A stretch of 64,000 nt of DNA. It comes from Strigamia acuminata (taxonomy: Eukaryota > Arthropoda > Chilopoda > Geophilomorpha > Linotaeniidae). The DNA lies in contig OX442324.1 of assembly GCA_949358305.1 (NCBI GenBank), forward strand, positions 9,025,601 to 9,089,600, read 5' to 3'. Position numbers and translations under genes: made by a program. The notes under the pieces are model-generated. The model was not told the DNA's origin. It was given only the letters and a program-made list of their open reading frames with translations, and did no database searches. Shown here in pieces: positions 8,056 through 64,000 of the stretch. Each line of letters starts with the position of its first letter. Within the stretch, counting starts at the first letter, position 1.

Positions 8056-10423
8056 TTATGCTCGGAAGATCTTCGAAGTCAGTGATCGTAAACGGTCTGA
8101 TGCGAGCCATTTTGTAAAAATGTCCGCGATGTTAATCTCGCCGGCCACTTTTCGAAGATCGAAGACTCCCGCCGTAAACCACTCCCTGAGCCAATGATAT
8201 TTCACGCGAATGTGTTTCGTTTTCGCGTTTTTGATGTCGTTGGACGTAAATTGAATAGAGGCCAGGGCGTCGGAATATACGATGGGTCGAGACAGTCGAT
8301 TGAGAATCGGAAAATCGGTGTAGACGTGGTCGAGCCAGAAAAGTTCTTTCACACACTCTACTAGGGCGATAAATTCCGCTTCCATAGTAGAGCATGCCAC
8401 TGTCGATTGTTTGCGGCATGACCAGCCGATGGGCACGTTTCCGACATATACAATGTATCCTCCGAAGCTCAATGACGTTTCCGGGTCGCTTGCCCACGAT
8501 GCATCGGTGTAAGCTGATAGTTGGCTGGAAGCACAACCGGATAGTTCGATGCAAAGGTCTGCAGTATTTGCCACGTACTGCAGAACCTGTAACAAAGCGC
8601 GAATGTGGGTTCGATTATAGCACGTGTTGAACTGTGCTAGAGCGATAACGGAATATAGAATGTCGGGACGTGTTCTCGATGCCAGGAACAGTAATGAGCC
8701 GATTAGAGATCGATAAGGAAAATCCTCCAAATTTTCAGTTGACCCTCTGACGAGTGTGGTTCCAGGGGTCACTGGCACTTTAACGAGGTTGTTAGTCGTC
8801 GTCACGAACTTCTTAACAATCTTTGCGATATAGGCACGTTGGGTGATGAACGTGCGTCCGGCGTCGCGGATGAATTCGACGCCCAGGAGCTTCGTGATCG
8901 GGCCAAGATTTACGATGTCGAATTTCGAGCTGATGAGTTGAATCAGTTGTTTAAAAGCACTGTCGGATGCATAAAACAGAACGATATCGTCCACGTAAAC
9001 CAGCATGACAGCTGTATTGCCGAATACGTAGACGCAGTTGCATGCCGGCATCTTTCGAAATCCGAGGGCCCGAAGTGTTTCGTCGAGTTTTTCGAACCAC
9101 TGTCTTCCGGACTGGTGGAGGCCGTAGAGTGATTTGATGAGTAGCCACACATTATTTGGATCGGAACATGTGGCACCTGCGGGGATCTTCATATAGACTT
9201 TATGCTTTAATTCCCCGTATAGGTACGCACATTTCACGTCGAGGTGTGCGTCCTTCCACCCACGTAGCACGACCAGAAGACAGAAGAATAGACGAATGAG
9301 AACAAAGTTGACCACCGGACTAAACACTTCATCGAAGTCGACACCGAGGGTTTGACGAAAACCTTGCGCTACTAAGCGTGCTCGATATCGGGTGACGGTT
9401 CCAGCTGCATCGGTCTTGAGTTTGAAAATCCACTCACAGCCGAGTATCGTTGTGTTCGGTGGTTTCGGAACCTCTTCATAAATTTCTCTCTCTTTAAACG
9501 TGTCTAATTCCTCTTGTATGGCTTCACGCCATTTCGGAGCGTCGTTGAATTTCGGAATCTCCGCGTATGAAGCTGGTTCAGTTCGGCATAAATGAGCAGC
9601 ATGACGAACGCCCGGAAGAGTCGGCAATTTATGTTCGAGGTTACCGAAGAAGAAAAGTTCGGGTTCATAATCGATGTTATTCAACATGCAGTAATCTTCA
9701 ATATCCTTGTAAGATCTGAGTCGAATCTTTGGAGTCGGAAAATAATAAACATCGATTAAAATGGATCCCGGTTTCTGATCTTTCCTAAGATGTTCTTCAT
9801 GGACCCACTCGCTGCACTCCCCGTCGCCACCGACGAATCGCCACATGTGAGTTGTATGGCGAGCAGTTGCTGCAGCAACTTCAGTCCCTAATACAGGTGC
9901 TGGTGACATGGGAGCCGGATCGAAGACTTGTAACGTGTGCGATGTAGGGTCATCAGCACGTTGTTGGCGACGTGTCGTAACAAATCTTAGCGGATCACGT
10001 GGAGGAGAATGAAGCGTTGTGCGTCGAGGTGACGGTGGCGCAGACGGAAGAGGCGTAGATGGAGGTGTTTGACGTGGTGATTGGTCGGGTGATGTGCCAG
10101 TAAATTCGGATGTGCCCGGATACATGGATGCACTCTCAATGGGCTCAACATCATCTGCCGTGTCACCTCCTTCCTCTTCATATAATTTGGGATATGATTG
10201 AGAATATCGCAACGTTGCTGAACCTGGTGGTTGGGTTGCACATAGATCCAACAATAATTGTTGGTGTCGTCGGAGGTGGCAAGAAAATATGCGGGAAAAT
10301 TGGCGGCGTGTGCATTGTCACAGATGTGGAGGTCTGGTTGCCGTTGCTGTCATCGGAATCATTATCCGAACGATTTGATCCTTCGGAGTCAGATCCCCTC
10401 GGCCAAGCGTGATACCTGACATC
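8056..10423 (-). pseudogene. copia P Pol, 3' half: MBD-like segment, RT, RNase H
   Basis: Continues the P polyprotein after the Q insertion point. From 10423 the frame reads DVRYHAWPRGSDSE..., then shifts by one base between roughly 10254 and 10320. The remaining frame runs uninterrupted to the stop at 8056. It holds a proline/serine-rich linker, an MBD-like segment (9640-9807, W in CSEWVHEEH through FFFGN), RT (WIFKLKTD; catalytic YVDD at 8986-8997; SLYGLHQSGRQW) and copia RNase H (YTDASWASD; STMEAEF; IADIFTKW). The closest relatives in the window are F (56345) and Q. The frameshift and the nested insertion both make it a pseudogene. Confidence 0.9.
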
Positions 10424-11132: not shown

Positions 11133-14100
11133 TTAGGAATGACGTATCCGATGAAAATCAAAAATGTTCGCAATCAGTAGATTAAGCCGGTCCGCACTTA
11201 ACCACTTGGTGAATATGTCAGAGACGTTTATGCTCCCGGGTATTTTCCTCAGTTCGAAACGTCCCTCGGAATGCCACTCCCTGAGCCAGTGGAACTTCAC
11301 ACGGATGTACTTCGTGCGTGAATTTTCCACGTCATTGGTCGAGAACTGGATGGATGCCAATGCGTCCGAAAATATGATGGGCTTGGAAACACGATTGAGC
11401 AATGGAAGCTCGGAGTAAATGTGGTCAAGCCAATAAAGCTCTTTGACGACCTCCATTAATGCTACAAACTCCGCTTCCATTGTCGAAGCTGCGACGCTGG
11501 TCTGTTTTTTACATGACCATCCAATCGGTGTGTTCCCAATGAACGCAATATATCCACCAAAACTCAGGGAAGTAGCCACATCGCTGGCCCACGATGCGTC
11601 CGTGTAGGCCCAGAGTTGTCCCGATGTGCAGTTAGACAGTTCAATACAATAATTCGCGGTGTTAGCTACGTAACGTAGGACTTGAAGCAATGCTTTGATG
11701 TGTGCCGCGGTATAACAATTGTTGTACTGAGACAGAGTAATCACGGAATATAATATATCCGGTCGGGTTCGAGATGCCAAGAACAGAAGGGATCCAATCA
11801 GCGATCTGTATGGGAAATCTGCCAAATTTTCTTTTGGTCCCTTGACTAAAGTTGTTCCAGGTGTGACAGGCACTTTAATGACGTTGTCTGCCGTTATGCC
11901 AAACTTCTTTAACAGTTTCTCGATGAATACGCTTTGAATCATGAAAGTTTGGCCCATATGTCGCACGAATTCGACTCCCAGCAGTTTGGTTATTGGTCCC
12001 AAGTCCACAATCTCGAATTTACTGCTGATCAGTTGGAGTACTTGGGTCAAAATGCTCTTAGACGAATAAAATAGAACTATATCGTCCACGTAGACGAGCA
12101 TGACCGCTGATTTGCCGAAAACGTAGACACAGTTGCAGGCGGGCATCTTGCGAAAACCTAACTCTTTGAGAGTCTCGTCCAATTTTTGATACCATTCACG
12201 ACCGGACTGGTGTAACCCGTATAACGATTTCGTGAGCAACCAAACATTTTCCGGATCATCACACATTGCGCCTGCAGGAATTCTCATATAAATTCGATGT
12301 TTAAGCTCTCCATATAAGTAGGCGCATTTTATGTCGAGGTGAGTGTCTTGCCATCCTTTGAGGACCACGAGGAGGCAAAAGAAGAAACGGATAAGCACGA
12401 AATTTACAACTGGGCTGAAAACTTCGTCGAAGTCAATCCCAATGGTTTGGCGAAAGCCTTGCGCTACTAATCTCGCACGGTAACGATTGATCTTTCCGGT
12501 CGCGTCCGTTTTTAATTTAAAAATCCATTTACAGCCCAGTATTGTTGTATTTGGCGGTTTAGGCACTTCCTGATACACCTCCCTTTTCTTGAAGGTTCCG
12601 AGCTCCTCATCGATGGCTTCACGCCATTTTGGTGCATCAGGGAATTTCCCAGCTTCGGAATAACTGGACGGTTCACGGCGGCATAAATGGATAATGGGTC
12701 GAATTAGAGGAACCTCAGGCAATTGGTGTTCCATGTTGCCGAAGAAGAAAAGGTCATCATCGTAGATAATGCCCTCTTTATCACAATACTCTCGAATGTT
12801 CGGTTTTGAGCGCAGCCGTAAGCCTGGTTTCGGGAAGTAGTACACATCTATCTTTATTTGTCCGGGGAATTGATCTTTCCTCAGATGTTCCTCCCGTTTC
12901 CAGTGGCTACAAGGACCGGTGCCACCTACGTAACGCCATTTATAAGATGTAGTGGCTGTAGGGATGATTGTTGGAACAACAGTGTGAGTTTCAGTCGGCG
13001 CTGGTGGCGGACGATGCGTTGGTCCAGAGCCCCGACGTGCCGTTACGAAAGGATTAGGTGAACCCGGAGGTGAATTGTCCGGGGTATGAAAAGGTGACAC
13101 TGTCGGAGTCAAAACAGGAGACGGTTTCGGAGTTGGAACCCGAACTGGTGGAGAAGGCGGTGGAGAAATACCTCCCACGGCACCTTGGGGTGTTGAATCG
13201 TCCGAATCATAATCACTCGACGTGTTCTGGTCTTCCGAGTCCGACATTCTGGCTGGCCAATCAGAATAACCAACGTTGTCGTCAAAATTCACCCTTGACG
13301 TCGTCGTAGGAACAGACTGGGCATTAAGATCTTCAGTCAATGACGTTTGTCGTCGAGAATTGTGACTCGATCGTCGAAAAGACTGTTTTTCATCAATCTG
13401 TACATGAATTGTTTCGATTACTTTATCATCAATGGGGTTCCAGACACGATATCCTCTGGTTCCTGTCGCATAACCAACGAGAAACCCTTCCCAAGCTCGT
13501 GATTCGAATTTGCTTCTACCAGGGGCTGTGTAGTGGACCCAGCATTTAGATCCAATCTTGCGAAGGTGTCGGAGAGAAAGAGCTCGTTGGCGCCAGAGAA
13601 TGTAAGGGACCTCATTGTTCAATCTGGAATGGGGACTTCTGTTCTTGACGTATGCAAAATTGACGGCAATCTCGGCCCAAAGCTCAAGAGGAAGTTGAGT
13701 TTCATCCAAAATTGCACGAAAATGGTCGGCCATCGTCCTATTTATTCGTTCGGCCGTTCCATTCATCTGAGGGGATGCAGGGTTAGTCCTCTGCGCTTGA
13801 ATTCCAGAATCGTTGAGATATTTGGTAAATTCGTTGGAAATAAATTCCCCGCCTCGATCAGTCCGTATGGCTTTGATTCGAGTATTTGCTACTCGCTCGA
13901 CACGGGAGACAAAGTCTTTAAAACACTGAAAAGTTTGTGATTTCTGGGCGATGGGAATTATCCAAGTATAACGAGTGGCGTCGTCAATAATTGTTAGAAC
14001 GTAGCGAGCACCGCCGAATGATGTCGCAGGTGCTGGCCCCCAAAGATCCATATGCATCAGATCTAATGCCTTAGTGGTAATTGGATGTGGATCTGGTTTA

Positions 14101-15929
14101 TGCGACGCTCGAATTGATTTAGCGATTCGGCAATGATTGCAGGCGAGCTCTTGGCGAACTTCTTCCGGTGTAAAACCATAAACTTGTGGGTTGTTGGCCA
14201 AAAGTCTAATGGCATTGGCGTGTAAATGCCCTAACCGGCTGTGCCAAAGTCCCGTACTGTCCTTCTTTGACGTTGCAGTAGCAATTGGTTTTTGACCATT
14301 CTGCTTAATCTGCTTGCCTGGATTGGATTTGGGAGGAATGCTATTCAGGGCCGTAGCATAGGACGGGACAATGGGGTTGGAATTGGTAAGGACAGGTGTA
14401 GGTACGGGAGGAGGATGGAAAGTCTGAGGAAGGAGATTTTTAGGCACTGGATTTGGCAACTCGATGCGAAAATCAGTAATGTCTCTTGTCTTCGACTTCT
14501 TGGATGCTTTCTTAATTTTTGGAAAATCTTCCTCAATCGTAACCATAGTTTTGGGATTTGTAGATGGCAAAACCTCATTTTGAACTTGAGGATTGTTCAC
14601 AGTAACTGTCGTGGGCGGACGCAATCCATCGACGTAATACAATCCTCCCTTTTGTCTCGCGCGGAGGACGCTGTGTCTAATATCGGTTTCATACACATTT
14701 ATTTCGGAATTAAATATGTGGATGTGGTGTTTATTATTGTCTATCCGCGATACCGAGATGAGGTTCGCCTCGAAGTTCGGAGCATACAAGACTTCGTGTA
14801 GATTCACCACACATTCGCAATTGTCAATAAAGGTCTGAATTCGCACAGTTCCTTTTCCAGTAACCTGTGAATGGCCTTGGCCTAACTCAATGTCAAAAGG
14901 TGTAACTGGTTGAAAATCCGAAAACCAAGCCTTGACGTGAGAAACATGGTCCGTTGCCCCACAATCGACGATCCATTCCGAATTTTGCATGAAGTGTGCA
15001 ATTGGGACCTCAACTTGTGGTGGCGCATTCAAAAAGAAGTTGGACTCTCTTCGAACTTGAGAATTCCCCCTTGGTTTCGAATTATCTTGTTGATTTGCCT
15101 TCTGCTTGCGTTTACGGCTGGAACTGCGTGATTTGCGTTGAAAAGTGGCAGTTGGGCGATTTTTGTCAATTCTATTTGGATTCGGAGGATGTGGACAGCG
15201 ATTCGCATAATGGCCCATGTCCCCGCAGTTATAACACTGAATTTGAGTTAATGGTCGTGAAGGGCGCGATTGGTCCCGTCCACGACGTTCATTGGCAAAA
15301 GCTTGAGATGACGAATTCGGATTATCCCGGGAAGAAATGGATTTGAGCCGGAGATATTCCGAAAGTAATTGGTCAGCTACTTTAATCGGCTTGAAGTCGT
15401 CGTCTGGCCAATGATATATTGCAAAAGAAACTTGGGAATATTCGCTGGGCAACATGTCCAAATACTGATAAGCTTTATGGTCATCTGATATTGTTTCTTT
15501 CACATCAGTCAATTTTCGGACGTGATCGTCCACTCTGCCGATGAAATCTACCATCTCTTCGCCAGGTAAGAGATGAAGACCAAGAAACTCGCGGCGCATA
15601 GCGGCCTTGCGAGCACGAGAAGATGGTGCATACACTTTTGCGAGGGCGTCCCATGACTCCTTTGGTGTATTGCAGGGATCTAAGACGGATCGTTTCGCCT
15701 CGCTCACTTGGCAGTAAATTAAACCCAATGCACGGTCCTTTCTTTTCTTGTACTTTTTCAATTCCTTGTCATTAAATGTCTTAAGGTCGGCTTCCTCGGT
15801 GTCTTCCGTGACGTGATGCCACAATCCTTCTGACTTCAAATACATGCGCATCGATCTGCGCCATGATTCATAATTTCCGATTGACAAAATCGGAATTTTG
15901 CCGACCGACGCGTCTGAAGACTTGGACAT
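11133..15929 (-). CDS. copia Q Gag-Pol polyprotein, complete, with MBD-like domain
   Basis: 1598-codon single ORF; I use the ATG at 15929, since the upstream extension begins at a GTG. Order: UBN2-type Gag (residues ~15-215, YESWRRSMRMYL onward), zinc knuckle CYNCGDMGHYANRC, protease with DCGATDH, GAG-pre-integrase (LWHSRLGHLHANA ... CNHCRIAKS), integrase DDE core (DLWGPAPATSFGG, IRTDRGGEF, NGTAERINRT), a Pro-rich linker, an MBD-like segment (residues 1010-1065), RT (WIFKLKTDATG; YVDD at 12081-12092) and RNase H (YTDASWASD, STMEAEF, VSDIFTKW). All catalytic motifs look intact. The protease has Cys in the usual D-S/T-G, a feature shared with P. It supplies all proteins for the element's replication cycle. 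Confidence 0.97.
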   Translation of the reverse strand: MSKSSDASVGKIPILSIGNYESWRRSMRMYLKSEGLWHHVTEDTEEADLKTFNDKELKKYKKRKDRALGLIYCQVSEAKRSVLDPCNTPKESWDALAKVYAPSSRARKAAMRREFLGLHLLPGEEMVDFIGRVDDHVRKLTDVKETISDDHKAYQYLDMLPSEYSQVSFAIYHWPDDDFKPIKVADQLLSEYLRLKSISSRDNPNSSSQAFANERRGRDQSRPSRPLTQIQCYNCGDMGHYANRCPHPPNPNRIDKNRPTATFQRKSRSSSRKRKQKANQQDNSKPRGNSQVRRESNFFLNAPPQVEVPIAHFMQNSEWIVDCGATDHVSHVKAWFSDFQPVTPFDIELGQGHSQVTGKGTVRIQTFIDNCECVVNLHEVLYAPNFEANLISVSRIDNNKHHIHIFNSEINVYETDIRHSVLRARQKGGLYYVDGLRPPTTVTVNNPQVQNEVLPSTNPKTMVTIEEDFPKIKKASKKSKTRDITDFRIELPNPVPKNLLPQTFHPPPVPTPVLTNSNPIVPSYATALNSIPPKSNPGKQIKQNGQKPIATATSKKDSTGLWHSRLGHLHANAIRLLANNPQVYGFTPEEVRQELACNHCRIAKSIRASHKPDPHPITTKALDLMHMDLWGPAPATSFGGARYVLTIIDDATRYTWIIPIAQKSQTFQCFKDFVSRVERVANTRIKAIRTDRGGEFISNEFTKYLNDSGIQAQRTNPASPQMNGTAERINRTMADHFRAILDETQLPLELWAEIAVNFAYVKNRSPHSRLNNEVPYILWRQRALSLRHLRKIGSKCWVHYTAPGRSKFESRAWEGFLVGYATGTRGYRVWNPIDDKVIETIHVQIDEKQSFRRSSHNSRRQTSLTEDLNAQSVPTTTSRVNFDDNVGYSDWPARMSDSEDQNTSSDYDSDDSTPQGAVGGISPPPSPPVRVPTPKPSPVLTPTVSPFHTPDNSPPGSPNPFVTARRGSGPTHRPPPAPTETHTVVPTIIPTATTSYKWRYVGGTGPCSHWKREEHLRKDQFPGQIKIDVYYFPKPGLRLRSKPNIREYCDKEGIIYDDDLFFFGNMEHQLPEVPLIRPIIHLCRREPSSYSEAGKFPDAPKWREAIDEELGTFKKREVYQEVPKPPNTTILGCKWIFKLKTDATGKINRYRARLVAQGFRQTIGIDFDEVFSPVVNFVLIRFFFCLLVVLKGWQDTHLDIKCAYLYGELKHRIYMRIPAGAMCDDPENVWLLTKSLYGLHQSGREWYQKLDETLKELGFRKMPACNCVYVFGKSAVMLVYVDDIVLFYSSKSILTQVLQLISSKFEIVDLGPITKLLGVEFVRHMGQTFMIQSVFIEKLLKKFGITADNVIKVPVTPGTTLVKGPKENLADFPYRSLIGSLLFLASRTRPDILYSVITLSQYNNCYTAAHIKALLQVLRYVANTANYCIELSNCTSGQLWAYTDASWASDVATSLSFGGYIAFIGNTPIGWSCKKQTSVAASTMEAEFVALMEVVKELYWLDHIYSELPLLNRVSKPIIFSDALASIQFSTNDVENSRTKYIRVKFHWLREWHSEGRFELRKIPGSINVSDIFTKWLSADRLNLLIANIFDFHRIRHS
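12735..12902 (-). other. MBD-like segment of copia Q
   Basis: 56 codons between integrase and RT: W-K-R at the start, LRKDQ loop, then D-V-Y-Y, P-x-P-G, L-R-S-K, YC, and FFFGN at the end. Compared with the MeCP2 MBD, the Trp, both Arg of the first strand and loop, the Asp, and the RSK triplet line up with one extra residue in the loop. Function in methyl-CpG recognition is inferred from this pattern only. Confidence 0.6.
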
Positions 15930-16669
15930 CGTGAAAAGAAGCACTGACACAGGGAATGACTAAATTTGATTGAAGCACTGAGACTGGACGTCTCGAAGCA
16001 CAAAACGTCGCACTGAGAATCGGAGCACTGTCAAGGCGGAAACCACGATGGGGAACCGATGCTACAATCGGTTTAAAAACCTTAGGCAAGTATCCCCCTA
16101 ACGTCCTTTGCAAGCCACCTGGGGCCACGGGAGTGTTAGGTGGCGCAGGGATAGCCTTGCCCAAGAATACTAGCTTCACGTGCCCGAATGGACGAAGGGT
16201 GAAGCCGAATCTAATTGACCCCCAAAAACTTAAACCTATCTTAAAATTAACAAAGTATATTGCGACTACTGTAGGGAGAGAATGATTAGTGATATGTTGA
16301 GATGAGATGAGCGACGACGGCGAGTTATCACGTCGAAAATCGTCGGTTTGCATCAAAACTCGTCGATTTACATCAGAACGCGAAAATCGTCGCGAAAACT
16401 TCAAAAATCGTCGTAAATCCTGGAAAAATCGTCGAAAATCTGTGTAACTCAAGTACCGACACGCCGTACAAGGTGCACTGCACGTGGGAAAATTCCAAAA
16501 TCGTCGAAAAATCGGTTGAAAATGATGAAAATCGTCGAAAATGGCGGCCGTCGGGTGAAAATCTGAAAATACACAAACTCGGCGCGAATTTTCGCGAATT
16601 TCGCGAAAATGGCGTCGATAATTAGCAATAAATAACACGATGGGTCGTCCCCAGCTCTCTGCTACCACT
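15930..16669 (-). other. 5' leader of copia Q with PBS
   Basis: 740-bp untranslated leader. Directly beside the 5' LTR the minus strand reads AGTGGTAGCAGAGAGCTGGG; its TGGTAGCAGAG matches the complement of an initiator Met tRNA 3' end for 11 bases and then diverges, so the PBS is partial. The plus-strand motif AAAATCGTCG recurs about six times between 16330 and 16540. The minus strand is open across leader and LTR (15868-16869, 333 codons), but I do not consider this a gene. Confidence 0.6.
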
Positions 16670-17169: not shown

Positions 17170-19304
17170 ACATCATCACTGAATGAAACTGACTGTTGTC
17201 CGGGACTGGTAAATGATTCCTCAGGTCGTTGGGTCGAAGTTCTGATGGATTTACGATACGACTGTCGTTCGTCGACCTTGACATGGATAGATTCATAGAC
17301 TTTGTTATTGACCGGGTTCCAAATTCTGTATCCACGGGTCCCTGTGGCGTAGCCGACTAAATACCCCTCCCAGGCCCGCGGATCCAGCTTCTTGCGGCCT
17401 GGTGCGGTGAAATGCACCCAGCATTTAGATCCTAGTTTGCGTAGGTGTCGTAATGACAAGGCTCTCTGCCGCCAAAGGATGTAAGGGACTTGATTGTTTA
17501 GCCGTGAATGAGGACTCCGATTTTTGATGTAAGAAAACGAAACTGCAAGTTCGGCCCAGAGCGCTTCCGGTAATTTGGTTTCGGATAGGACTGCACGAAA
17601 GTTGTCGGCCATTGTCCGATTTATGCGCTCGGCCGTGCCATTCATCTGTGGCGATGACGGGTTCGTTCGCTGTCCCTGAATACCCTTGTCTTGAAGGTAG
17701 CGGAGAAACTCATTCGACAAAAATTCGCCGCCTCGATCGGTACGTATCGCTTTGACGCTTGTTTCTTGTATTCGCTCGACTCTTGCCACAAAGTCTTTGA
17801 AAGATGCGAAAACCTGCGATTTCTGGGCTAATGGAATGATCCAACAATAGCGAGTGGCGTCGTCAATGATAGTGAGTACAAAACGCGCTCCTCCGAATGA
17901 TGGGGCGGGAGCCGGTCCCCAAACATCCATGTGGAGAAGGTCCAATGGTTTAGACGTAGAAGGGTTCGGGTCGGGTTTATGTGATGCTCTCGTAGACTTT
18001 GCGATACGACAGTCATTGCAGGCCAGCTCTCGTTGAACTTCTCCCGGTTCCATCCCGTAGACTTGGTCGTTAGCGGCCAAAAGTTTCATCGCGTTGGTAT
18101 GTAAATGGCCTAAGCGACTATGCCATAAACCGGTGGCATCCTTGACGGAAGTCGGATTGGCGATGATCTTCTTTTGTGATTGAGAATTGCCACCAAGCGG
18201 AGGGAAGGCGTTCATGGTCGGAATAGATTGTAACGCAGTTGCATAGGATGGGAGGATAGGCGGGTTGGTGAGGGTGTGTGTGAGTGTAGGAACAGGAGGA
18301 GGGATAGAATTGACTGGGATAGGAACTTGTTGGTTAGGAATTGGCTTCGCATTCTCAACAGGTGGCATCACTATCCGAAAGTCTGTGATCGGTCTTTTCC
18401 CCTTTCTCTGTTTTGGGATGTTGATAAAATCCTCTTCGGTCGTTACGAATGTTTGGACCGGTGGGGTGGTCGGTTCGGTCGCCGCAATATTTATCGGTTG
18501 AGCTGGCGTAGAAATCGTCGTCGCAAATGTCGGTGTCGAACACAAGCCGTCCACGTAATATAAACCGCCTCTCTCTTTTGCACGAATGAGAGGGCTACGA
18601 ATGTCTGTTTGATAAACATGAATCTCACTGTTGAAGATGTGAATGTGATGTCGAGCCTTATCTATCTTCGAAACCGAAATCAAGTTTGCCTCGAAATTCG
18701 GCGCGTATAAGACATTTGTCAAGTTCACGGTGCAGCGGGTCTTATCGATGGCTAAAAGAAGTCGGACGGTTCCCTTTCCTGTTACTTGGGATTTCCCCTG
18801 CCCGAGTTCGATATCGAAGGGAATGCAATCGGCGAAATCGGTGAACCAGGCACGGACATGCGAAACATGGTCTGTGGCACCGCAGTCCAGTATCCACTCG
18901 TTGGATTGCATAAAATGGGCGACTGGACGATGAATAACTTGCGGTGCATTGACGAAAAATGTCCCCTCTCGATGCGGATGGGAACTTTCGCAGGGCCGGT
19001 TGGGATTTGATTTCGTAGCGGCGTTCTTGTTTCGTTGTCGACTCTTACTGCGTGACGAGCGTTGCACTGAAACCATTGGCTGATTCGGATTTTGACGACG
19101 TGGGAGCGGACATCGATTGGCATAGTGCCCAAATTGTTCGCAATTAAAACATTTGATAGTCGACAGATCACGAGGGCCAGATTTATTGCGTTGACGGAAT
19201 TGCCCTTTTTCAGAAGCGTGAGCCGTCGATGGAGTTGTCCCGAATAGTCCAATCGATTTCATGTCGGGAATCAAATCACTCGAAGAATGGGCTGGTTTCT
19301 GCAT
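17170..19304 (-). pseudogene. copia P Gag-Pol, 5' half: truncated Gag, protease, integrase
   Basis: Minus-strand reading from ATG 19304 (MQKPAHSSS). Compared with Q, nearly the whole UBN2 Gag domain (about 200 residues) is missing: the start runs almost directly into the zinc knuckle CFNCEQFGHYANRC. Protease (ILDCGATDH), GAG-pre-integrase (LWHSRLGHLHTNA, CNDCRIAKS) and integrase DDE core (DVWGPAPAPSFGG, IRTDRGGEF, NGTAERINRT) follow without stops, until Q interrupts at 17169 in SFSDDV. Removing Q and one ACATC joins it in frame to DVRYH at 10423. The Gag deletion alone would make P dependent on Gag from other copies. Confidence 0.9.
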
Positions 19305-20504
19305 CGCTGAACGAAGAACAAAACACGACGCGGAAAACACAAAGGCTCAGAGAATGGCACTGTCGAAAGGCACTGAATCGGAGCACTGAACTGGCGCACT
19401 TCACTAGCACTTGAGGTTCGAAGCGGAAAGACCAGAATTGGGAGGCAATGCTACAATTGCCTGATAACCCGTGATAAGTGTCCCCCTGACGTCCTTTGTG
19501 ATCGCCTAGGATCGCGGGAGTGTCAGGTGGCGCAGGGCTCAGCCTTATCACAGAATACAATGGCGCGGTGCTCGGAATCGAGCGTAGGGCACCAAGGATA
19601 CTAAATGACCCACCAAAATCCCCTCTTAAAACTAACAAAGTAAAATCGAAAAAGGCGAAATAGGTGAATCGATTGCGGCTGCAATCCTCGTGCAAATGAG
19701 GGCACGGCTCGGCTTTCTCGAAAAGCCGGAGAAAACGCAGTTCGGACGTTAATGTCCGAACTCTTCTCGATAAATCGAGGCTCTTCTTCCACTTGAGAGA
19801 TCGCAGATAACCGCCGTTCACCGGGGAACTAAGCGGCGAACAATCGAGTGTTCGATTCTCGTTGTAACTGCCGCTCTTTGCTAAGCAGTGTCGTGAATCG
19901 AAAATGGCGTGAAATCTGCGAAATAAAGAAATTTCTCTCGAAATTTGCGAAACCCGCGTAATTTCGGAGAACATTAACGAAATAATGATGAGACAGACAA
20001 CCCCGGTTGTCTGTGAACGTCGGTGGGACGTCGCCGACGTAATTGAAACGAAAATCGATGATTAATCTACAAATAAATAACGTTTGCCTCGAAATTTGCG
20101 AAGAACGCACAAAATCGGGCAAAATTAAACGAAAAATGGCGAAATAAACAGCCCCAGCTGTCTAAATCGTCGGTGACACGTCTGGGAATGTAGCAGAGGA
20201 GTGTATTGCACGAATTGTGCAATCCACAGGAAACAAGTCGGAAATCGTCGAATCCTACAAATAAGCAAAATTTGTCTCGAAATTCGCGAATCCTGCGGAA
20301 TTTCGGACAAAATTAAACGTTGAATCGTGAGATAAGCAGCACAGGCTGCTTGTGAACGTCGGTGAAACGTTTTTGGACGTTCGTACGACGAAAATCAAAC
20401 CGAAAATGACCGCAATCTGAAACGAAATTAATTTCGGCGCAAAAATCGCAAATTTCGCGAATTTCACGTCGAAAATTAACAAAATAAATGTGGAATTGGG
20501 CAGC
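19305..20504 (-). other. 5' leader of copia P with three hairpin repeats
   Basis: About 1.2 kb without a credible gene. It holds three diverged repeats, each with a short palindrome followed by a conserved CGTCGGTG: AGACAACC/GGTTGTCT at 19995-20012, ACAGC/GCTGT at 20148-20161, and AAGCAGC/GCTGCTT at 20334-20351. Each is preceded by an AATTTCGG..AAATTAACG-like stretch. Structured leader repeats suit genomic RNA packaging or dimerisation, but that is inference. Confidence 0.55.
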
Positions 20505-48936: not shown

Positions 48937-49467
48937 CTTAATTTCTTTTCATTTTATAATTTTATTTCTTTCTTTACTTTACCCAACCTTCTTTCCTTCT
49001 TGTGTTTATAATTTTCCCTGCTTTAAACCAAATATTTACGGAGGATAGACGCTGAAAATAGTAAGTAAAGATTAGTTTAGGAATTTGAAATTCATCAATT
49101 TAAAATGATGATACGAAAATTTACTAAGTCCAAACTCATGCTTCTTCGAAGTGCGTGATTAAATCTCGTTCACGCGAGAGGTCCGTGTCATATTTTATGA
49201 CGAGGCGACCCCGTAGCGAGACCGCGTGTATTAAAGACATGTGAGGGCACGACTTAGCCACATTTTAATTTGCGTCTGAATAGTCGCGCCTCAAAAACTT
49301 AACAATCACTTAAATTGGATAAATATTGTTAAAAATTGTGCGTCTATCACCCGTAAGTACTTTCTATCTCACAACAATTCATTTTTAATTGAATATTTTT
49401 GTTAAAAATAACTTTTTCTTCGTGGAAAATTTCCATTTCTTTTAGTTTCACTTTACGATAATTTATT
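48937..49467 (+). other. non-coding spacer between pol and the extra ORF of Z
   Basis: 531 bp without an ORF. It ends in TTTCTTTTAG (49436-49445), a good 3' splice acceptor, 22 bases before the ATG of the next ORF. A region near 49165-49240 with GAGACCGC/CGCGAGAGG-like segments may fold but was not resolved. It supports expression of the downstream ORF from a spliced RNA. Confidence 0.5.
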
Positions 49468-52332
49468 ATGGCGTCCTACGATCCAAAAGTAACGATTACG
49501 ATTCCAAAACCAACCCAAAAAGGCTATCCAAAGTACCTGCCGATGCCACCAATCGAAGCGTCGGGCGAAGGACTGGTGCCACGCTTTCATCCTGACCACC
49601 CAAACGACCAAAGTTTTCCAAACTATGAACTGTGTCCAGTTTGTAGCGGGACAGGATTTGAAATTTATCAACTGCGGGCGCCACGAGAATGCCGAGCGTG
49701 TCGGGGCGGCGGTGACTTGCGCCGTTGCAAATTTAGGAAATGGATGCGCCTCATGTTTGCGTATGTGCTTGGTTATGAATCGATAGACAAAACATCGTTG
49801 GCTGGAGTGGATTTTCCGCCGCCGAGGATTCCGTTTGGCAGTGCAAACGCCATCGCTCGTTTTCGTCATGCGCACGCGTCATATTTGGCACGCATAAAGC
49901 AATTGGCAAAAGAGAAGGGAATCCGACCTTTAACTTGGAAATATCCGGAGGGAGCGTACATAATAGCTGGTGAACAGCCTGCCGAACTTCCGGACCAGTT
50001 TGTGACGCCTGAAGGAAAGACCTACGATGTGGAATCGGGTATAGAGCTGTGTTTGACGGCGCCTAATGTGATCGCGGATGCGAAAAGAGCATATTCGGAA
50101 CCAGAGAAAGTTGCAGCCGACTTGCCATTTCAACATTCAAATCTGCGCCCACGACATACGTACGAGGAGCGAAGCACGCATCGTTTGAAGGAGTACACGC
50201 AGAAAGTAACGAAAAGGATTGGAGCGGAGGCGAATCGAGACACTCACTTCGTGACGGGACGATCCAGACCAACGTTGGACGCATCATCAGTCATTGTCGA
50301 GGAAAATGGAGCGGTTGGAGGAGCGCCTGCCGCCTTGCCTGTCGTTGGACCAACAGAAGAACTTTCGTTGGGCGATCAAGTGATTAAAAAGGTAAAGAAG
50401 AATGAAGAAAACAGAAGAGAGAGAGAGAAAATTGGTAATCTCAGCACGATGTCGACCCCGATCATCAAAACGGAATCGAGTGTGACGGCGGCGGAGGCGA
50501 AGTCAACCAACGTTACAACGGTGACCACTGCTGCACCAATCGTCATTCCTTATTTTTATGTCGTAAAAAACAAATCATCTTCGATTGAGACGTCCGAATC
50601 GAGTCAAGCTGCCCGACCTGTCGATGCCACCACTGTGACCCAATCGAATGTGACGCCCAAGATGATGACTTCAGTTGCTGCGACATCGGTGCCGATTACG
50701 TACTCCAAAATTGCAACTTCAAACACACAAATGGACACAGTTGCTGATTTTAACAAAAAACTAATTAAAGCTGATTTTTCCCCACAGGTTGACCGAGATA
50801 TTAAGGCGTTGTTGAATTTCACACCGTCTTCATCCATCGCGAATATCGCTGCCGAAATTGCGAGAGATGCAGGAGAACGCGCGAAAATCCACGACATCAA
50901 GAAATTGGAGAGCAAGATTTCGAATCCAATTGCTAAAGCCATTTCAGCGGTCTCGAGCGGATCGACGTCGTCGGAAGGATGCGCGTCCCTGAAGCCACGA
51001 TATCTCCAGGGATTCGACCGAAATGGATGTACGATGCGCCCAGACCGTATTTTCACCCAGATGTCCGAAATATTCCGGCGCCACGAGCTCGAGATACTGT
51101 ACCCCATGGAGAACAGGGGTCAAGGACGAATCAACCTGAGATCGGAGGGATGGAGCGAACTTTTTAAGATGTCGATCAATTTGGACTTCAATGTTAGCGC
51201 CTCAGACTTCAAGACGGTCGTCGGAACGATTTTCGGACGCCTCGGAAACATCGCGAAGGAAATTGAAGCGAAAATGACAAAGGACTGTACCGGAGACGAG
51301 CACGCGGTGCAGCACCTCATTGTGCACGCCGTGCACTTTAATTTAAAAAAGATCATCACCCAAATGCATCAGAGTCGTCGCGACGCCGTTAAACGATTTC
51401 GTGAGGCCGACGCGCTCAGGGAGGCCCAGAGACTTGAGGACGAGAAAAATGCGCCCGCTAAGCCACCACTGGACCCAGAGTTGATCATGACGGAGGATGA
51501 AATTAAGAACTTTTCAGAAAAGATTCTCATCGAGTTGGCGCCTGAAAAATTGGTGCAACAATTTCAGTATGCAGTTGCCGAGAATCCGAAATTGGCAGAT
51601 CCCCGAACCAAATATTCATTCCGATACGACCCCGTAATTGTGGCGGACACAGGAATGCTCGCCTCGGAGTTATCATCGGATGTGGATTATTCGATGTCGG
51701 ATGTCGAGTCGCTTCGCGAGTCAACGGGCGACGAGGAGAACCACAAAGCATTCCTGGCGGCGCGAGAACACAACAAAATTGAGGTAATTCAGGCCGACAA
51801 GCCCTTCAGACTTCCTGGAGTTGGACGGGGCGGTGCAAAGGCTGGACGTCGATCGCCATTGATGTCAAAGATGCCTAAGATGATTTTGACGCCGCCGAAG
51901 GAGAGTGACGACAATACAAGCGAGGTTGTCACACGTGAGAGTTTGCGCGAGCCGGTCGAGCCGAAGCCTAAGAAGAAACGTCTCGTGGAGCCAACTTGCG
52001 CATTAGCAATTATGGAAGAGATTATCCCAATTGATGATATTTTCTACTCATTGCCGTGGGAGCCCAAAATCGAATTGGTCGTGGATTGGAGTGTTCTGAC
52101 GCGCCTCTTCGAAACGATCATCTTTTCGGACTTGCAACTTGACCACAGCGCGGGCGAAAGGTTGTTGTCCATCATTAAACAATATTACGTCAGACATTTC
52201 CTTTGCCGAGTAAACAGAATTAGCCAGAAGTGCTACGCGACTTCTAAACAACAGGTGAGAGTGATCCTCGTGAAAACCGCGCTTAGACTGGTCTATTATG
52301 CGATGGACGGTCAAGGCGCGTCTGCATTTTAA
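49468..52332 (+). CDS. post-pol ORF of gypsy Z, 954 residues, paired CxxC motifs, function unknown
   Basis: ATG 49468 to TAA 52332, uninterrupted. Residues 56-59 are CPVC followed by GTG and residues 75-78 are CRAC followed by RGGG, a single DnaJ-type or zinc-ribbon-like pair. Residues ~290-420 are Thr/Ser/Val-rich and disordered. A predicted helical domain (~510-650; ILYPMENRGQGRINLRSEGW, FGRLGNIAKEIEAKM) follows, then acidic and basic tails (PKPKKKRL resembles a nuclear localisation signal), and a final helical segment (VLTRLFETIIFSDLQ; YYVRHFLCR). There is no signal peptide, furin site or membrane segment, so it is not an env. Element A has a shorter counterpart at 2633. I do not recognise the family; a chaperone-like or RNA-binding accessory role is speculation. 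Confidence 0.8.
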   Translation: MASYDPKVTITIPKPTQKGYPKYLPMPPIEASGEGLVPRFHPDHPNDQSFPNYELCPVCSGTGFEIYQLRAPRECRACRGGGDLRRCKFRKWMRLMFAYVLGYESIDKTSLAGVDFPPPRIPFGSANAIARFRHAHASYLARIKQLAKEKGIRPLTWKYPEGAYIIAGEQPAELPDQFVTPEGKTYDVESGIELCLTAPNVIADAKRAYSEPEKVAADLPFQHSNLRPRHTYEERSTHRLKEYTQKVTKRIGAEANRDTHFVTGRSRPTLDASSVIVEENGAVGGAPAALPVVGPTEELSLGDQVIKKVKKNEENRREREKIGNLSTMSTPIIKTESSVTAAEAKSTNVTTVTTAAPIVIPYFYVVKNKSSSIETSESSQAARPVDATTVTQSNVTPKMMTSVAATSVPITYSKIATSNTQMDTVADFNKKLIKADFSPQVDRDIKALLNFTPSSSIANIAAEIARDAGERAKIHDIKKLESKISNPIAKAISAVSSGSTSSEGCASLKPRYLQGFDRNGCTMRPDRIFTQMSEIFRRHELEILYPMENRGQGRINLRSEGWSELFKMSINLDFNVSASDFKTVVGTIFGRLGNIAKEIEAKMTKDCTGDEHAVQHLIVHAVHFNLKKIITQMHQSRRDAVKRFREADALREAQRLEDEKNAPAKPPLDPELIMTEDEIKNFSEKILIELAPEKLVQQFQYAVAENPKLADPRTKYSFRYDPVIVADTGMLASELSSDVDYSMSDVESLRESTGDEENHKAFLAAREHNKIEVIQADKPFRLPGVGRGGAKAGRRSPLMSKMPKMILTPPKESDDNTSEVVTRESLREPVEPKPKKKRLVEPTCALAIMEEIIPIDDIFYSLPWEPKIELVVDWSVLTRLFETIIFSDLQLDHSAGERLLSIIKQYYVRHFLCRVNRISQKCYATSKQQVRVILVKTALRLVYYAMDGQGASAF

Positions 52333-58471: not shown

Positions 58472-58739
58472 CTTTATCGTGACATTCCTATTTTTAGTTT
58501 TTCCCGATTGTGAGAGTCATCGAGTTTCTGTGGGAATATTCTCGGCTCGGTTATTCGACTTTATTATTTATCTTTTGAATTAATGTTTACACTGTAATTC
58601 CAGTATGTATTTATCTTTCCCCTGAACATTTAAGATCGAAGGAGGGATTTGTTGGTCTAAAGACCTTGTTGTATCGATATCAAATGTTAGTTCTCTATAT
58701 ATTTAGTTTTCAAATGTATTCCCAGGTAGCACAGATGAT
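58472..58739 (+). other. copia G 3' UTR, PPT and start of its 3' LTR
   Basis: Purine run GAAGGAGGGATT ends at 58649; TGTTGGTCTAAAGACC starts the LTR at 58650. The recognisable LTR is lost after about 58735, where the tandem repeat array begins. Confidence 0.7.
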
Positions 58740-59219
58740 CGAATTTACATAGAATCTATATAGACCGCGCTGTGTTGAATCTGCATAGACCTGTTGATGT
58801 AGATGCGATGTTAAATCTATGTCAATGTTCTATCCCAATTTAATTTAACATAGATTTAACATAGACTACTCTATGTTGAATCAACATAAAGCGATTGATG
58901 TTGAATCTGTGTCGACCGCTCTTTGTTGAATCTGCATAGGTCTGTTGATATCGATGCGATGTTAAATCTATGTCACAGTTCTATCCCAATTTAATTTTAA
59001 CATGGATTTAACATAGACCGCTCTATGTTGAATCAACATAGACCGATTTATGTTGAATTAACATAGAAGGCTCTGTGTTGAATCTATGTAGACCGTTAAT
59101 GTCGATGCGATGTTAAATCTACGTCTCTGTTCTATCCCAAAATAAATTTAACATGGATTTAACATAGACCGCTCTATGTTGAATCAACATAGATCGATTT
59201 ATGTTGAATTTGATAGGTT
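58740..59219. repeat. tandem repeat array with ~151-bp period
   Basis: GATGCGATGTTAAATCTA recurs at 58802, 58953 and 59104, spacing 151 bp, with TTCTATCCCAA following each. Inside the unit a ~30-bp subrepeat (CATAGACCGCTCTATGTTGAATC) alternates and is partly palindromic. It has no coding potential. It replaces or extends the end of copia G's LTR and is bounded on the right by copia H. Confidence 0.85.
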
Positions 59220-59667
59220 TGTAGGCGCCGGACATCAATGAAAAGGAGCTGACACTCGATTTAAACGGTGCGGGAACTCGCATTATGCGACCGCCATCTT
59301 TATTCATCGTGATGAGAAGAGAGAGAACATAAAAGCGCACCTCTTTCGAGGCTACAAAGCTTAAAGTAGAACAAATCACTGTTAACAAGCAATGATTTGT
59401 CCTTTACATGATAAACAATAAAGGAGGAGCAAATAATCGATAAACAACTTAAAAGCAATGGAATAACTAAACGAATATTGCTCATTTGAGCGGACGACGA
59501 GAAGGCACATCTTTACAAGTAAATAAACTAGTTGCGGCACATAACAAGCAGGGTAAAAATCGGGATCAACTAGTTTAACTAAGTCACAGCAAAGTAAAGA
59601 CATGCACGTTGCATTTAGCCATAAATATGCAACTAATAAATCTCAAACAGTTGGGCATTTCCCAACA
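59220..59667 (-). repeat. 3' LTR of copia H (outer end tentative)
   Basis: Inner edge is certain: CCCAACA at 59661-59667 beside AATCCCCCTTTGCGC, the complement of the PPT GCGCAAAGGGGGATT. The outer edge TGTAGGCGCC at 59220 is inferred from the loss of the tandem repeat and the TG start, giving 448 bp. Confidence 0.75.
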
Positions 59668-59684: not shown

Positions 59685-62600
59685 CTATTTGACTACAACA
59701 AAAATATGCTCACAGAGCTGACATAATCTGGGGCGCGGCAACCATTTTGTCATCAAATCCGCGATGTTCAATTCGCCAGGCACATGTTTAATACTAAACA
59801 CGCCTTTTTCATACCAATCACGAAGAAAGTGCAATTTAACATCTATATGTTTATTTGCACGGTTCTCGATCTTGTTTTTCGCATAGTTGATTGCCGGCAT
59901 GCTATCGGCGTAGACGCAAGGGACATTTCGGTTGAAACATAAGATGACATCAGCTTCGTACAAACGTTCAAGCCATATCACTTCTCTCACGCCATCGACA
60001 ACTGCGAGAAACTCGCTTTCCATTATACTCAGTGAAGTCATGGATTGTTTTCGACAATTCCATGAAATCGGAACCCCTCCTAAATAAACTATGTGACCAC
60101 CAAAGCTTCTCCTACTGTCTTGGTCCAAAGCAAAGGATGCGTCGGTGTAAACCGTTAAATTGTTGTTCTTACAATTTGCTAGGTTGATAACATAGTTGGG
60201 GGTATTCGCCAGATACCTTAACACTTGTACTAACATTTTAACATGTCTGTTAGAGTGGGTCTCATTGTATTGAGACAATACAATAACGCTGAAGAGGATA
60301 TCTGGGCGCGTTCTATTCGCGATAAAAAGTAAACTCCCTACTAGGGACCTGTATGGGAACGTCGAGTTCACTTGTTCACCCGGTTGTACCTTCTGTATCA
60401 TGGTACCAACTGTGACTGGGATTTTAATCTTATGGCACGGATCAATGTCGTATTTCTCGACTAATTTCGCAATATAACTCTTTTGATGTACTAAAATGTC
60501 CCCATTTTTCCTCTCAAAATGAATCCCTAATAGTAGAGTTACTGGTCCAAGGTTGACTATTTCAAAGCTCTCTTGAATCCACTCGATGATACATTGTTCA
60601 ACGAAAGCGTCACGACTGAACAAAACAATATCGTCGACGTAAAATAAAAGGACGGCATCTGAGCCGTAATTATACACACAATTCAATCCTAAGACTGGAG
60701 TAAATCCTATTTCTAACAATCGTTCGTGGAGCTTGAAATACCACATTCTTCCGGACTGGTGAAGTCCGTACAAGGATTTGACCAATCGCCAACATTTGTG
60801 TTGGTTCTCTTTGGTCCGGAAGCCCTTCGGGATATTGATGTATTGTGGCACGTCAAGGTCTCCGTATAAGTACGCAGACTTGATGTCGAGATGTGTATCT
60901 CGCCAGCCTTGCAGAACCACAAGAGAACAAAAGAATATCAGTACGAGAACAAAGTTGACCACTGGTGAAAATATCTCAGTGAAGTCAACTCCTTCTTTCT
61001 GCCCAAAACCTTGCGCAACTAAACGTGCTCTCCACCGTTTAATTGCCCCAGTGTAGTCACGCTTGATCTTATAAATCCATTTTGTTCCCAGTAAATTCAT
61101 CCCTTCGGTTTTGTCAACTTCCTCGTAAACTTTTCTGTCATTAAAGATATTAATCTCGTCATCCATGGCATCCTGCCAGTCGGATTTATTGGGATTGGAC
61201 ATAGCTTCTTCAAAAGTATCCGGTTCAACGGATGCATGACCGGCGAACCCAATGGTCTCATCTGTTGCCTTAAAGTCGAAACAACCCCCATCGTACTGAT
61301 AGTCTTCTTCTTTGCACCATCGTACAACATCAATCCGACTGCGGATTCTATCGCCAAGTGGTGTTATGTAGATCACATCCACCTGCCCAGCAGTTTCACC
61401 ATTTTGCCTAACGGTTTCTCTCCGTTGCCATTGTGTCATGTCCAAAATTTTTAATTCCTCAGGAGCGGTCATACGTTTTCTTATTATATCCCCCTTTAAC
61501 TTAGCACCGCGTGGCGGATTCCTCCTAACTGGTGGAGGTGTGAGAGTCCGATTTGGAGGCCGAACTTCCACTTGTTGTTCCTCCTCTTCTTCAATCCCAC
61601 CAACAGCTTGAGCGATTTCTTCCACAATTTCAGGCTCGACCGCCTGTTGGACTAATTGGGGATTCGGAATCGCATGTTTCGGGGCCTGAAACAACTGCTG
61701 TATGATAGGGGGAACCTGTTGCTGAACAGGAGCCACTTTCTGTGGTATTCCCCCTTGTGCCACTGGAATTTCTTCTTCATCCGAATCTTCATAATTCAAA
61801 TTTCCCATATAATTAGGTTCGGACGGAATTTCACTCAGTTGCACCGACTCGTGCCAAAAGACATTCTCATTAATCTTCACATGTTTTGAAGCAATCACTT
61901 GGTTGGATTTGGGGTCCCAAACTCGATACCCCCGCGTCCTAATCGCGTAACCGACTAGGGCCCCAGGCCACGCCCTTTCTTCCAACTTGCTTCTCCTTGT
62001 TTGCGAAGGAATGTGCACGAAAACTTTGGAGCCGATACATCTTAAATGTCTCAACGACATTTTCTTGTTATAAAACAAGTTATAAGGGGTTTTCCCACTT
62101 AAGCTTGCATGTGGGAATCTATTTTTAAGATAGACAACTGTCACGGCTAATTCTGCCCACAAACCCTTTGGAAAATTGTTTTCGAAGAGCATGGCTCTAA
62201 TTCCCCCAACAATTGTTCTGTTTGCTCTTTCGGCCACGGAATTCATTTCTGGGGAGTAGGGGTTTGTTTGGATGCACTTAAGCCCAATAGAAGCCGCATA
62301 GTCATCCCACTTTTTCGACACAAACTCCCCGCCGTTGTCTGTCTTGATGCATTTGACTTTTTTCCCGGTGCTGCGCTCAACTTGTGTTTGCCATCGTTTG
62401 AAACGCTCAAAAGCATCCCCCTTGTTTTTAATAATTTCCACCCACATAAAACGTGAGTAATCGTCCACGATTATCAAGTAATAGCTGGCCCCACCAAGAG
62501 ATTTAAAAGGTTGAGGGCCCCACAGATCCATGTGGATTACTTCCAAAATTCCCTTTGTAGAAATTTCTGGGATGGGGGAAAAGGTTGCCCTAGTACTCTT

Positions 62601-64000
62601 TGCCTTCGAACACGCGTCGCAAGGCGAAAGTTCTTTGTCGGAGAGTTTAACTCCGAAAATGTCGGGTGAAACTTCCATTTTTGCAATTCCACTTGCATTA
62701 AAATGGCCCATTCTGGAGTGCCAAATATTCATTGGCTGCGGTTTCACTTTGATCTTTTCGATTTTTCCCCCATTCGAAACATTTTGCCCGTTAGTATCAT
62801 TTAAATCGCTTTTCTTAAGATTTGACGCATTTACTAGCGCATTTACGCTCACTTGCTGCTTCGCTGCAGTCTGCACTGCGCCACTCAATGTGTTTAGTAA
62901 TGCTGCCTTAAAATCTACTGTTTTTAGTAAAGGATTAACGACACTTTCCCTTTTTACAACATTTTTGACCGAATTTCCACCCACCGCTGCACTCTGTTGC
63001 GCAGAAGGTGCAGTTGTGTTCACAATATTAGCCTCTAATTTGCAGTTAACTTTGTACATCCGATCATTTGTTCTATCTGCAACAAGAAAAGGCTCACTAA
63101 TTCGGTCTTTAAACATGGTCAACTTTCCATTTTTGATAAAAGTTGTGAAACCAGCTTCATCTGTCCGGCCCAGCGATAAGAGATTCTTCTTAAAATTTGG
63201 CGCAAAATAAACATTTTGCAGTGTGATTTCCCTACATCTGCCTGCATAACAAGATGTGATCAACACGTTTCCAATGCCCTCAATTTTAGATTTACCTTCC
63301 CCCTGCTGGACACTATAGCCGGACAGTGGCTTGAAGGTCACGAACCAACTTCTATTAAATGAAAAGTGATCTGTCGCACCGGTATCTATGTACCAGTGCG
63401 GATCAAAGTCGCAATGCGACATTAGAGACAATGGTGGTGACAAGGTGACTTCCTCTTCAGTTTGATGAACTGCCGCCGAGAACATTGTCAATGGTTCATC
63501 AAAGATGTCAACTTGTCCCAAATTGGCCTTTTTGGTCTTTCCACCACGGCCACGTCCTCGTGCAGTGCCTTTTGCTAGCTGTGCAGAGGTGCCACCTCGT
63601 TGGCTTTGCATATTCGCTTGTTGTTTGGGCGGTGACGGGCACTCTCTCGCAAAGTGACCAGTGCCGCCGCAGGAAAAACAAGTTCGAGGTGTAAATGGTT
63701 GATTTCCGCCTTTTCCGCGTTGGAATCGCCCTTTTCCAAAGAATGCGCCTGCATTATCAGTGGAATCCTGTGTACGCATACCATAGGAGTCTGAAGCTTC
63801 AAATAAACGATTATACTCTCCTAATAATCGCTCTTTCACTTTTGCAGTGGTGAAGTCCAAATCATCCCAGTGGTACATTATCTGCTTAATTGTCTCATAA
63901 GTTGTTGGCAGAAAATCCATGTATTGAAATGCGATTTCCTCATCCGTCGGTATAACTTTGACGTTCGCGAGTTCTGCGACTTTTCTGTCGACACGGGCCA
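59685..64000 (-). CDS. copia H Gag-Pol polyprotein, N-terminus cut by the right edge, with MBD-like domain
   Basis: Frame open from the right edge to TAG 59685, no stops (residue numbers from M at 63920). End of UBN2 Gag (MDFLPTTYETIKQIM), zinc knuckle CFSCGGTGHFAREC (81-94), an RGRGRGG stretch, protease (YIDTGATDHF), GAG-pre-integrase (IWHSRMGHFNAS ... CDACSKAKS), integrase DDE core (DLWGPQPFKSLGG, IKTDNGGEF, NSVAERANRT), Pro/Glu-rich linker, MBD-like segment (831-886), RT (WIYKIKRDYTG; YVDD at 60630-60641), and RNase H (YTDASFALDQ; SIMESEF; IADLMTKW). All catalytic motifs are intact, so the visible part is compatible with an active element. Confidence 0.95.
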   Translation of the reverse strand, partial: ARVDRKVAELANVKVIPTDEEIAFQYMDFLPTTYETIKQIMYHWDDLDFTTAKVKERLLGEYNRLFEASDSYGMRTQDSTDNAGAFFGKGRFQRGKGGNQPFTPRTCFSCGGTGHFARECPSPPKQQANMQSQRGGTSAQLAKGTARGRGRGGKTKKANLGQVDIFDEPLTMFSAAVHQTEEEVTLSPPLSLMSHCDFDPHWYIDTGATDHFSFNRSWFVTFKPLSGYSVQQGEGKSKIEGIGNVLITSCYAGRCREITLQNVYFAPNFKKNLLSLGRTDEAGFTTFIKNGKLTMFKDRISEPFLVADRTNDRMYKVNCKLEANIVNTTAPSAQQSAAVGGNSVKNVVKRESVVNPLLKTVDFKAALLNTLSGAVQTAAKQQVSVNALVNASNLKKSDLNDTNGQNVSNGGKIEKIKVKPQPMNIWHSRMGHFNASGIAKMEVSPDIFGVKLSDKELSPCDACSKAKSTRATFSPIPEISTKGILEVIHMDLWGPQPFKSLGGASYYLIIVDDYSRFMWVEIIKNKGDAFERFKRWQTQVERSTGKKVKCIKTDNGGEFVSKKWDDYAASIGLKCIQTNPYSPEMNSVAERANRTIVGGIRAMLFENNFPKGLWAELAVTVVYLKNRFPHASLSGKTPYNLFYNKKMSLRHLRCIGSKVFVHIPSQTRRSKLEERAWPGALVGYAIRTRGYRVWDPKSNQVIASKHVKINENVFWHESVQLSEIPSEPNYMGNLNYEDSDEEEIPVAQGGIPQKVAPVQQQVPPIIQQLFQAPKHAIPNPQLVQQAVEPEIVEEIAQAVGGIEEEEEQQVEVRPPNRTLTPPPVRRNPPRGAKLKGDIIRKRMTAPEELKILDMTQWQRRETVRQNGETAGQVDVIYITPLGDRIRSRIDVVRWCKEEDYQYDGGCFDFKATDETIGFAGHASVEPDTFEEAMSNPNKSDWQDAMDDEINIFNDRKVYEEVDKTEGMNLLGTKWIYKIKRDYTGAIKRWRARLVAQGFGQKEGVDFTEIFSPVVNFVLVLIFFCSLVVLQGWRDTHLDIKSAYLYGDLDVPQYINIPKGFRTKENQHKCWRLVKSLYGLHQSGRMWYFKLHERLLEIGFTPVLGLNCVYNYGSDAVLLFYVDDIVLFSRDAFVEQCIIEWIQESFEIVNLGPVTLLLGIHFERKNGDILVHQKSYIAKLVEKYDIDPCHKIKIPVTVGTMIQKVQPGEQVNSTFPYRSLVGSLLFIANRTRPDILFSVIVLSQYNETHSNRHVKMLVQVLRYLANTPNYVINLANCKNNNLTVYTDASFALDQDSRRSFGGHIVYLGGVPISWNCRKQSMTSLSIMESEFLAVVDGVREVIWLERLYEADVILCFNRNVPCVYADSMPAINYAKNKIENRANKHIDVKLHFLRDWYEKGVFSIKHVPGELNIADLMTKWLPRPRLCQLCEHIFVVVK
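61263..61430 (-). other. MBD-like domain of copia H
   Basis: Residues 831-886, from W in MTQWQRRETV to FDFKAT. Against the human MeCP2 MBD as I know it, it aligns without gaps from the Trp (W104) through the RSK triplet (133-135): W104, R106, R111, G114, A117-G118, D121-V122, P127, G129, R133 and S134 are all matched, and a C-terminal FDF motif follows. R111, D121 and R133 are the residues that recognise methyl-CpG. Domain identity is strong; methyl-DNA binding is inferred. Confidence 0.75.

Follow-up and report, generated by a model that had tools for sequence, protein, structure and literature searches.

In chromoviruses, which belong to Ty3/Gypsy, a chromatin-reader domain (the chromodomain) lies C-terminal to the integrase at the end of pol, and the elements are associated with TE-rich chromatin. 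In Ty1 and Ty5, the integrase C-terminal tail before the reverse transcriptase (RT) carries a targeting signal; these signals are short peptides that bind a protein partner. The chromodomain is described as an accessory domain in two papers (PMC9289625, PMC6338049), and other captured domains are treated in PMC5890265 and PMC6338049. Captured DNA methylation machinery is represented by the retrotransposons of dinoflagellates and charophytes that bear a DNMT, a methyltransferase enzyme and not a reader; the term MBD (methyl-CpG-binding domain) is absent from the main text of that paper (PMC5890265). A survey of plant LTR elements reports no domain gain in Copia (PMC9289625). We found no description of an MBD in copia among the listed titles and abstract openings of open-access papers on methyl-CpG-binding or captured domains in retroelements and on ant or TE-island genomes.

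Here we describe an MBD inside the polyprotein of a copia element, element H, in a 64,000-nucleotide stretch of Strigamia acuminata DNA (the window). As in chromoviruses, a domain of the chromatin-reader type follows the integrase, but the element is a copia, the domain is an MBD, and it lies inside the polyprotein before RT. It occupies the same slot as the targeting signals of Ty1 and Ty5, which are of the same superfamily, but it is a folded domain of a DNA-binding type.

An MBD between integrase and reverse transcriptase

An earlier note on this DNA had claimed an MBD-like domain between the integrase and RT of element H and had proposed a Pfam search, a structure prediction, and a search of other copia polyproteins as checks. 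We found that the segment matches PF01429 with an E value of 2.2e-10 and 40.4 bits (curated cut-off, 21) and sits in frame between integrase and RT; the coordinates first given for it, 61263..61430, were one codon off the Pfam placement (Table 1). As a single sequence, it matched MBD1 best in the PDB (1d9n, 5e-8), followed by MBD2, MeCP2, MBD3, BAZ2, and MBD4, and a profile of ten such element-borne MBDs (retro-MBDs) matched MBD2 (2ky8) at 5.7e-15. An AF2 model made from the MBDs of the window alone had a pLDDT of 77.7. When this model was used in Foldseek, the first 44 PDB rows were all MBD-type folds, 26 of them at an E value of 0.001 or less. By profile and predicted fold, the segment in the copia polyprotein of element H is a genuine MBD. 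Chance similarity or a low-complexity artifact was ruled out by the Pfam, PDB profile, and fold matches and by the shuffled-linker test described below.

Table 1 Features of the copia frames in the window
Feature	Position	Strand	Details
Copia polyprotein of element H	59685..63998	-	Open frame of 1437 aa in the window, continues beyond the window end
Weak gag match (under cut-off), CCHC zinc knuckle, Pol_BBD, gag_pre-integrs	Element H frame	-	Pfam
Integrase core (rve)	62250..62543	-	Residues 486-583; Pfam
SH3_retrovirus domain	61854..62072	-	Residues 643-715, after integrase core; Pfam
Low-complexity, variable linker from SH3-like domain to MBD	61434..61853	-	Last ~100 residues before MBD compared
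MBD (PF01429)	61266..61433	-	Residues 856-911; Pfam, PDB profile, AF2/Foldseek
Reverse transcriptase (RVT_2)	60414..61133	-	Residues 956-1195; Pfam
3' LTR of element H	59211..59667	-	Coordinates converted from locus L031; 5' LTR outside the window
Second MBD-copia polyprotein	11133..15959	-	1608 aa
Diverged MBD of ORF 11133-15959	12723..12908	-	Pfam 17.9 bits (under cut-off); retro-MBD profile 48.3 bits
Third MBD-copia frame	8056..10317	-	753 aa; integrase part outside frame
Diverged MBD of ORF 8056-10317	9628..9813	-	Retro-MBD profile 35.8 bits; no Pfam match

The Pfam domains of element H follow the order gag, CCHC, Pol_BBD, gag_pre-integrs, rve, SH3_retrovirus, MBD, and RVT_2. The integrase precedes RT, and RT is of the RVT_2 type, as in Ty1/copia. 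A Pfam scan of the frame found no chromodomain, and the superfamily is also not that of the chromoviruses. The complete element (locus L031) extends outside the window; its open frame spans 1547 aa, and its LTR pair is 91.5% identical. Satellite-like repeats with a TGTTGAATC-type motif adjoin its 3' LTR at about 58730-59210 of the window, as judged by eye.

The search of other copia polyproteins found MBDs in the same slot in two further ORFs of the window, both missed by the earlier note, and MBD matches elsewhere in the genome. To score the diverged MBDs of these two ORFs, we built a profile from eight retro-MBDs that included neither of them (Table 1). With the same profile, the best of 2000 shuffled linkers reached 10.3 bits, and four pieces of MBD-free copia reached at most 1.5 bits. 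Because these two MBDs fall under the Pfam thresholds, annotation pipelines may overlook the spread of the MBD-bearing copia lineage (MBD-copia). Two other frames were seen in the window: a copia frame at 17073-19346 (-) that stops after the SH3-like domain and has no MBD or RT, and an open frame of 956 aa at 49462-52332 (+) with no convincing Pfam match.

Copies, selection, and origin of MBD-copia

We searched the 237.5-Mb assembly that contains the window. Its gene content included 54 cuticle-protein matches, which point to an arthropod, and a single odorant-receptor match in an exon-wise search, which speaks weakly against an ant as host. We scored the best 150 of 1092 first-look PF01429 candidates, and all were over the cut-off. 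Among these 150 matches, 149 were stop-free within the match and 119 lay within open frames of at least 1500 aa (hand count). With an MBD2 piece as the query, at least 48 further places were found, which gives at least 198 MBD-copia places in the genome, element H included; these are hand-merged, score-ranked matches, a biased sample in which most places are known from the match alone. We read 20 loci of about 10 kb and found a retro-type MBD in 19 of them, the other (L050) being a host-like exon. The RT motif YVDD lay downstream in the same frame in 15 of the 19. In the remaining four (L033, L034, L037, and L048), the frame is broken at the RT motif by stops or shifts, and L037 is a putative copia. 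The many copies and the 19 loci rule out that the MBD of element H is a single odd copy. At least seven MBD-copia subfamilies are present, with the pair in the window counted. No relatives were found in three single-piece scans of viral contigs and two scans of non-arthropod genome contigs.

Ten of the 19 loci have LTR-like pairs: that of element H noted above and nine that are 98.1 to 100% identical (eight at 99% or more). Target-site duplications of 5 bp were seen by eye in eight of nine elements, element H not being among those read. MBD-copia elements also carry a PBS-like TGGTAGCAGAG, which we take to be a match to the initiator tRNA, and a purine tract precedes the 3' LTR. Thus, LTRs, 5-bp duplications, PBS, and purine tract are all of the Ty1/copia kind. 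The near-identical LTR-like pairs and the target-site duplications suggest that the family was recently active.

Across subfamilies, the MBD is a conserved island whose flanking linkers can barely be aligned. We calculated dN/dS for thirteen MBD-copia pairs, seven close and six deeper. In the close pairs, the MBD gave values of 0.069, 0.089, 0.29 (four changes only), 0, 0.136, 0.104, and 0.062. In six of these seven pairs, the upstream linker had a higher value than the MBD, and in four, RT had a lower value than the MBD. In the deeper pairs, dS was near or past saturation, and the computable MBD values were 0.22 to 0.47. We concluded that the retro-MBD is under purifying selection.

In an RT tree, ten MBD-copia sequences fell on one side of a 100/100 branch and four MBD-free copia sequences on the other. 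This is consistent with a single origin of MBD-copia in a tree with four MBD-free rows; gains or losses may have occurred elsewhere. The retro-MBD shares its fold and its DNA-contact residues with the host chromatin proteins MBD1, MBD2, MBD3, MeCP2, and MBD4. In the PDB and profile matches and in the comparison with the host gene, it resembles MBD1/2 in general, and we infer that the donor was an MBD1/2/3-type protein. The host MBD2/3 gene (L055, G000 C5:5734300-5734600) has a Phe, as in MBD3, at the position equivalent to the methyl-contacting Tyr of MeCP2. Judging from its two frames, the MBD of this gene is apparently split by an intron that is absent from the retro-MBD. Altogether, the findings are best explained by a copia LTR retrotransposon lineage that is old but includes young copies and in which an MBD was captured at the C-terminal end of the integrase region, between the SH3-like domain and RT.

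Genomic distribution of MBD-copia

We compared the 198 MBD-copia places with an MBD-free copia control set of 150 RVT_2 matches among those listed. No listed MBD match lay closer than 2.5 kb to any of the 150; the MBD-free status of the set rests on the listed MBD matches, on their shorter frames (many of 1307 to 1410 aa, the longest listed being 1465), and on four pieces that were read. The positions of the two sets differed on C1 (Kolmogorov-Smirnov [KS] p 5e-5), C3 (2e-5), and C6 (1.5e-5) and more weakly on C5, C8, and C12 (p 0.01 to 0.03). We found no significant KS difference on C4, C9, C11, and C13. Of the 198 MBD-copia, 5 had one of 21 host gene markers within 500 kb, compared with 20 of the 150 places in the MBD-free set (Fisher p 2e-4).

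As a second control, we used 150 Gypsy/BEL integrase matches out of 4147 candidates, counted in 1-Mb bins on eight contigs. MBD-copia co-localized with Gypsy/BEL (rho 0.52). In contrast, MBD-free copia gave a rho of -0.08 with Gypsy/BEL and of -0.16 with MBD-copia. No MBD was found in the two Gypsy/BEL-type ORFs that were scanned. The TE-rich regions common to MBD-copia and Gypsy/BEL were the ends of C1 and C6, both arms of C12, and the first third of C3, where MBD-free copia were fewer or otherwise spread. The co-localization and the marker counts indicate that MBD-copia are elements of TE-rich regions away from the tested genes.

The earlier note had proposed that the domain acts in integration-site choice. 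In favor of this, a tether is plausible and the distribution is unlike that of MBD-free copia. The Gypsy/BEL control, however, weakens a reading of MBD-specific targeting from distribution alone. Since Gypsy/BEL share the regions, TE islands, selection that removes insertions close to genes, or other features of the integrase could account for the distribution. The two copia sets also differ over the whole polyprotein. The MBD is therefore one candidate cause of the distribution, with selection or another integrase feature as alternatives.

The question of methylation reading and a proposed role

We aligned ten retro-MBDs and compared the residues that contact DNA, in MeCP2 numbering. As had been claimed for element H, W104, R111, D121, R133, and S134 are kept: the Trp, the two Arg fingers, the Asp, and the Ser are invariant in all ten. 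The position of Y123, which contacts the methyl group in MeCP2, holds a Tyr in six of the ten. It is Ile in element H, which the earlier note had missed, and Trp, Val, and Val in L047, L042, and L036. In the RT tree, these four group on a single 100/99 branch, so that part of the lineage differs from the 5mC-selective MBDs at this position. Of the 30 top loci, a score-ranked and biased sample, 23 are of the H and B types. In MBD3, a Phe at this position weakens methyl selectivity.

We also looked for traces of methylation in the copies themselves. Among 15 copies of one family, singleton transitions (C-to-T or G-to-A) were found at 6 of 196 CpG positions and at 33 of 765 other C/G positions (Fisher p 0.54); among 8 copies of another, the counts were 15 of 158 and 74 of 711 (p 0.88). 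The CpG o/e across MBD-copia stretches was 0.93 to 1.65. The lack of a CpG-transition excess suggests that MBD-copia copies are not heavily methylated in the germline.

It is unlikely that the retro-MBD is a true methylation reader that binds symmetric 5mCpG and directs insertion to methylated DNA. The invariant Arg fingers and Asp, the six Tyr, and a host with 11 DNA_methylase exon matches (about five loci) and an MBD2/3-type gene all fit such a reader. They are set against the Ile, Val, or Trp of the H clade, the unenriched CpG transitions, and the CpG o/e. MBD-copia also lie away from the tested host gene markers, and arthropod DNA methylation is mostly within gene bodies. A strict 5mC reader is thus weakened by the Tyr replacement in the H clade and by the lack of a CpG-transition excess. 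In the H clade, the domain probably binds either CpG DNA or some partner protein and does not select strictly for 5mC; lineages that have retained the Tyr may be 5mC readers. Of the methylation-reader tether put forward by the earlier note, a true MBD that follows the integrase and is conserved across the lineage has held up; 5mC reading is doubtful.

We lean, by a little, toward a retro-MBD that serves after the integrase as a tether to DNA or chromatin, where we infer the DNA binding, the action with integrase, and any effect on distribution. The MBD would anchor the integrase or the pre-integration complex on DNA or chromatin; the insertion site, or what the element remains bound to, would be biased as a result. 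The mode of action would be that of chromodomains in chromoviruses and of the integrase C-terminal targeting peptides in Ty1/Ty5. A fuller version, which we put forward tentatively, is that the integrase-linked MBD finds CpG-bearing or methylated chromatin, that the element, by inserting into TE islands, leaves genes untouched, and that one clade has shifted to methyl-blind CpG binding. If true, this would be a DNA-methylation-type counterpart to the chromovirus chromodomain.

The MBD might instead serve the life cycle of the element itself, by counter-silencing, by binding cDNA or RNA, or by recruiting or decoying host repressors, with no part in site choice. It does adjoin RT, and other retrotransposons have captured a DNMT, which sets a precedent for the uptake of methylation machinery (PMC5890265). 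Nothing specific favors such a role, and it leaves the distribution bias unexplained; we consider it improbable. That a captured MBD persists as a passive leftover with no function is disfavored and very improbable given dN/dS values of 0 to 0.14 in six of seven close pairs (the seventh, 0.29, has four changes) and five key residues that are invariant across subfamilies with distant RTs.

A conserved MBD on a young and abundant animal copia is a natural experiment in whether DNA-methylation-type readers steer insertion, and the MBD-free copia of the same genome are its built-in control.
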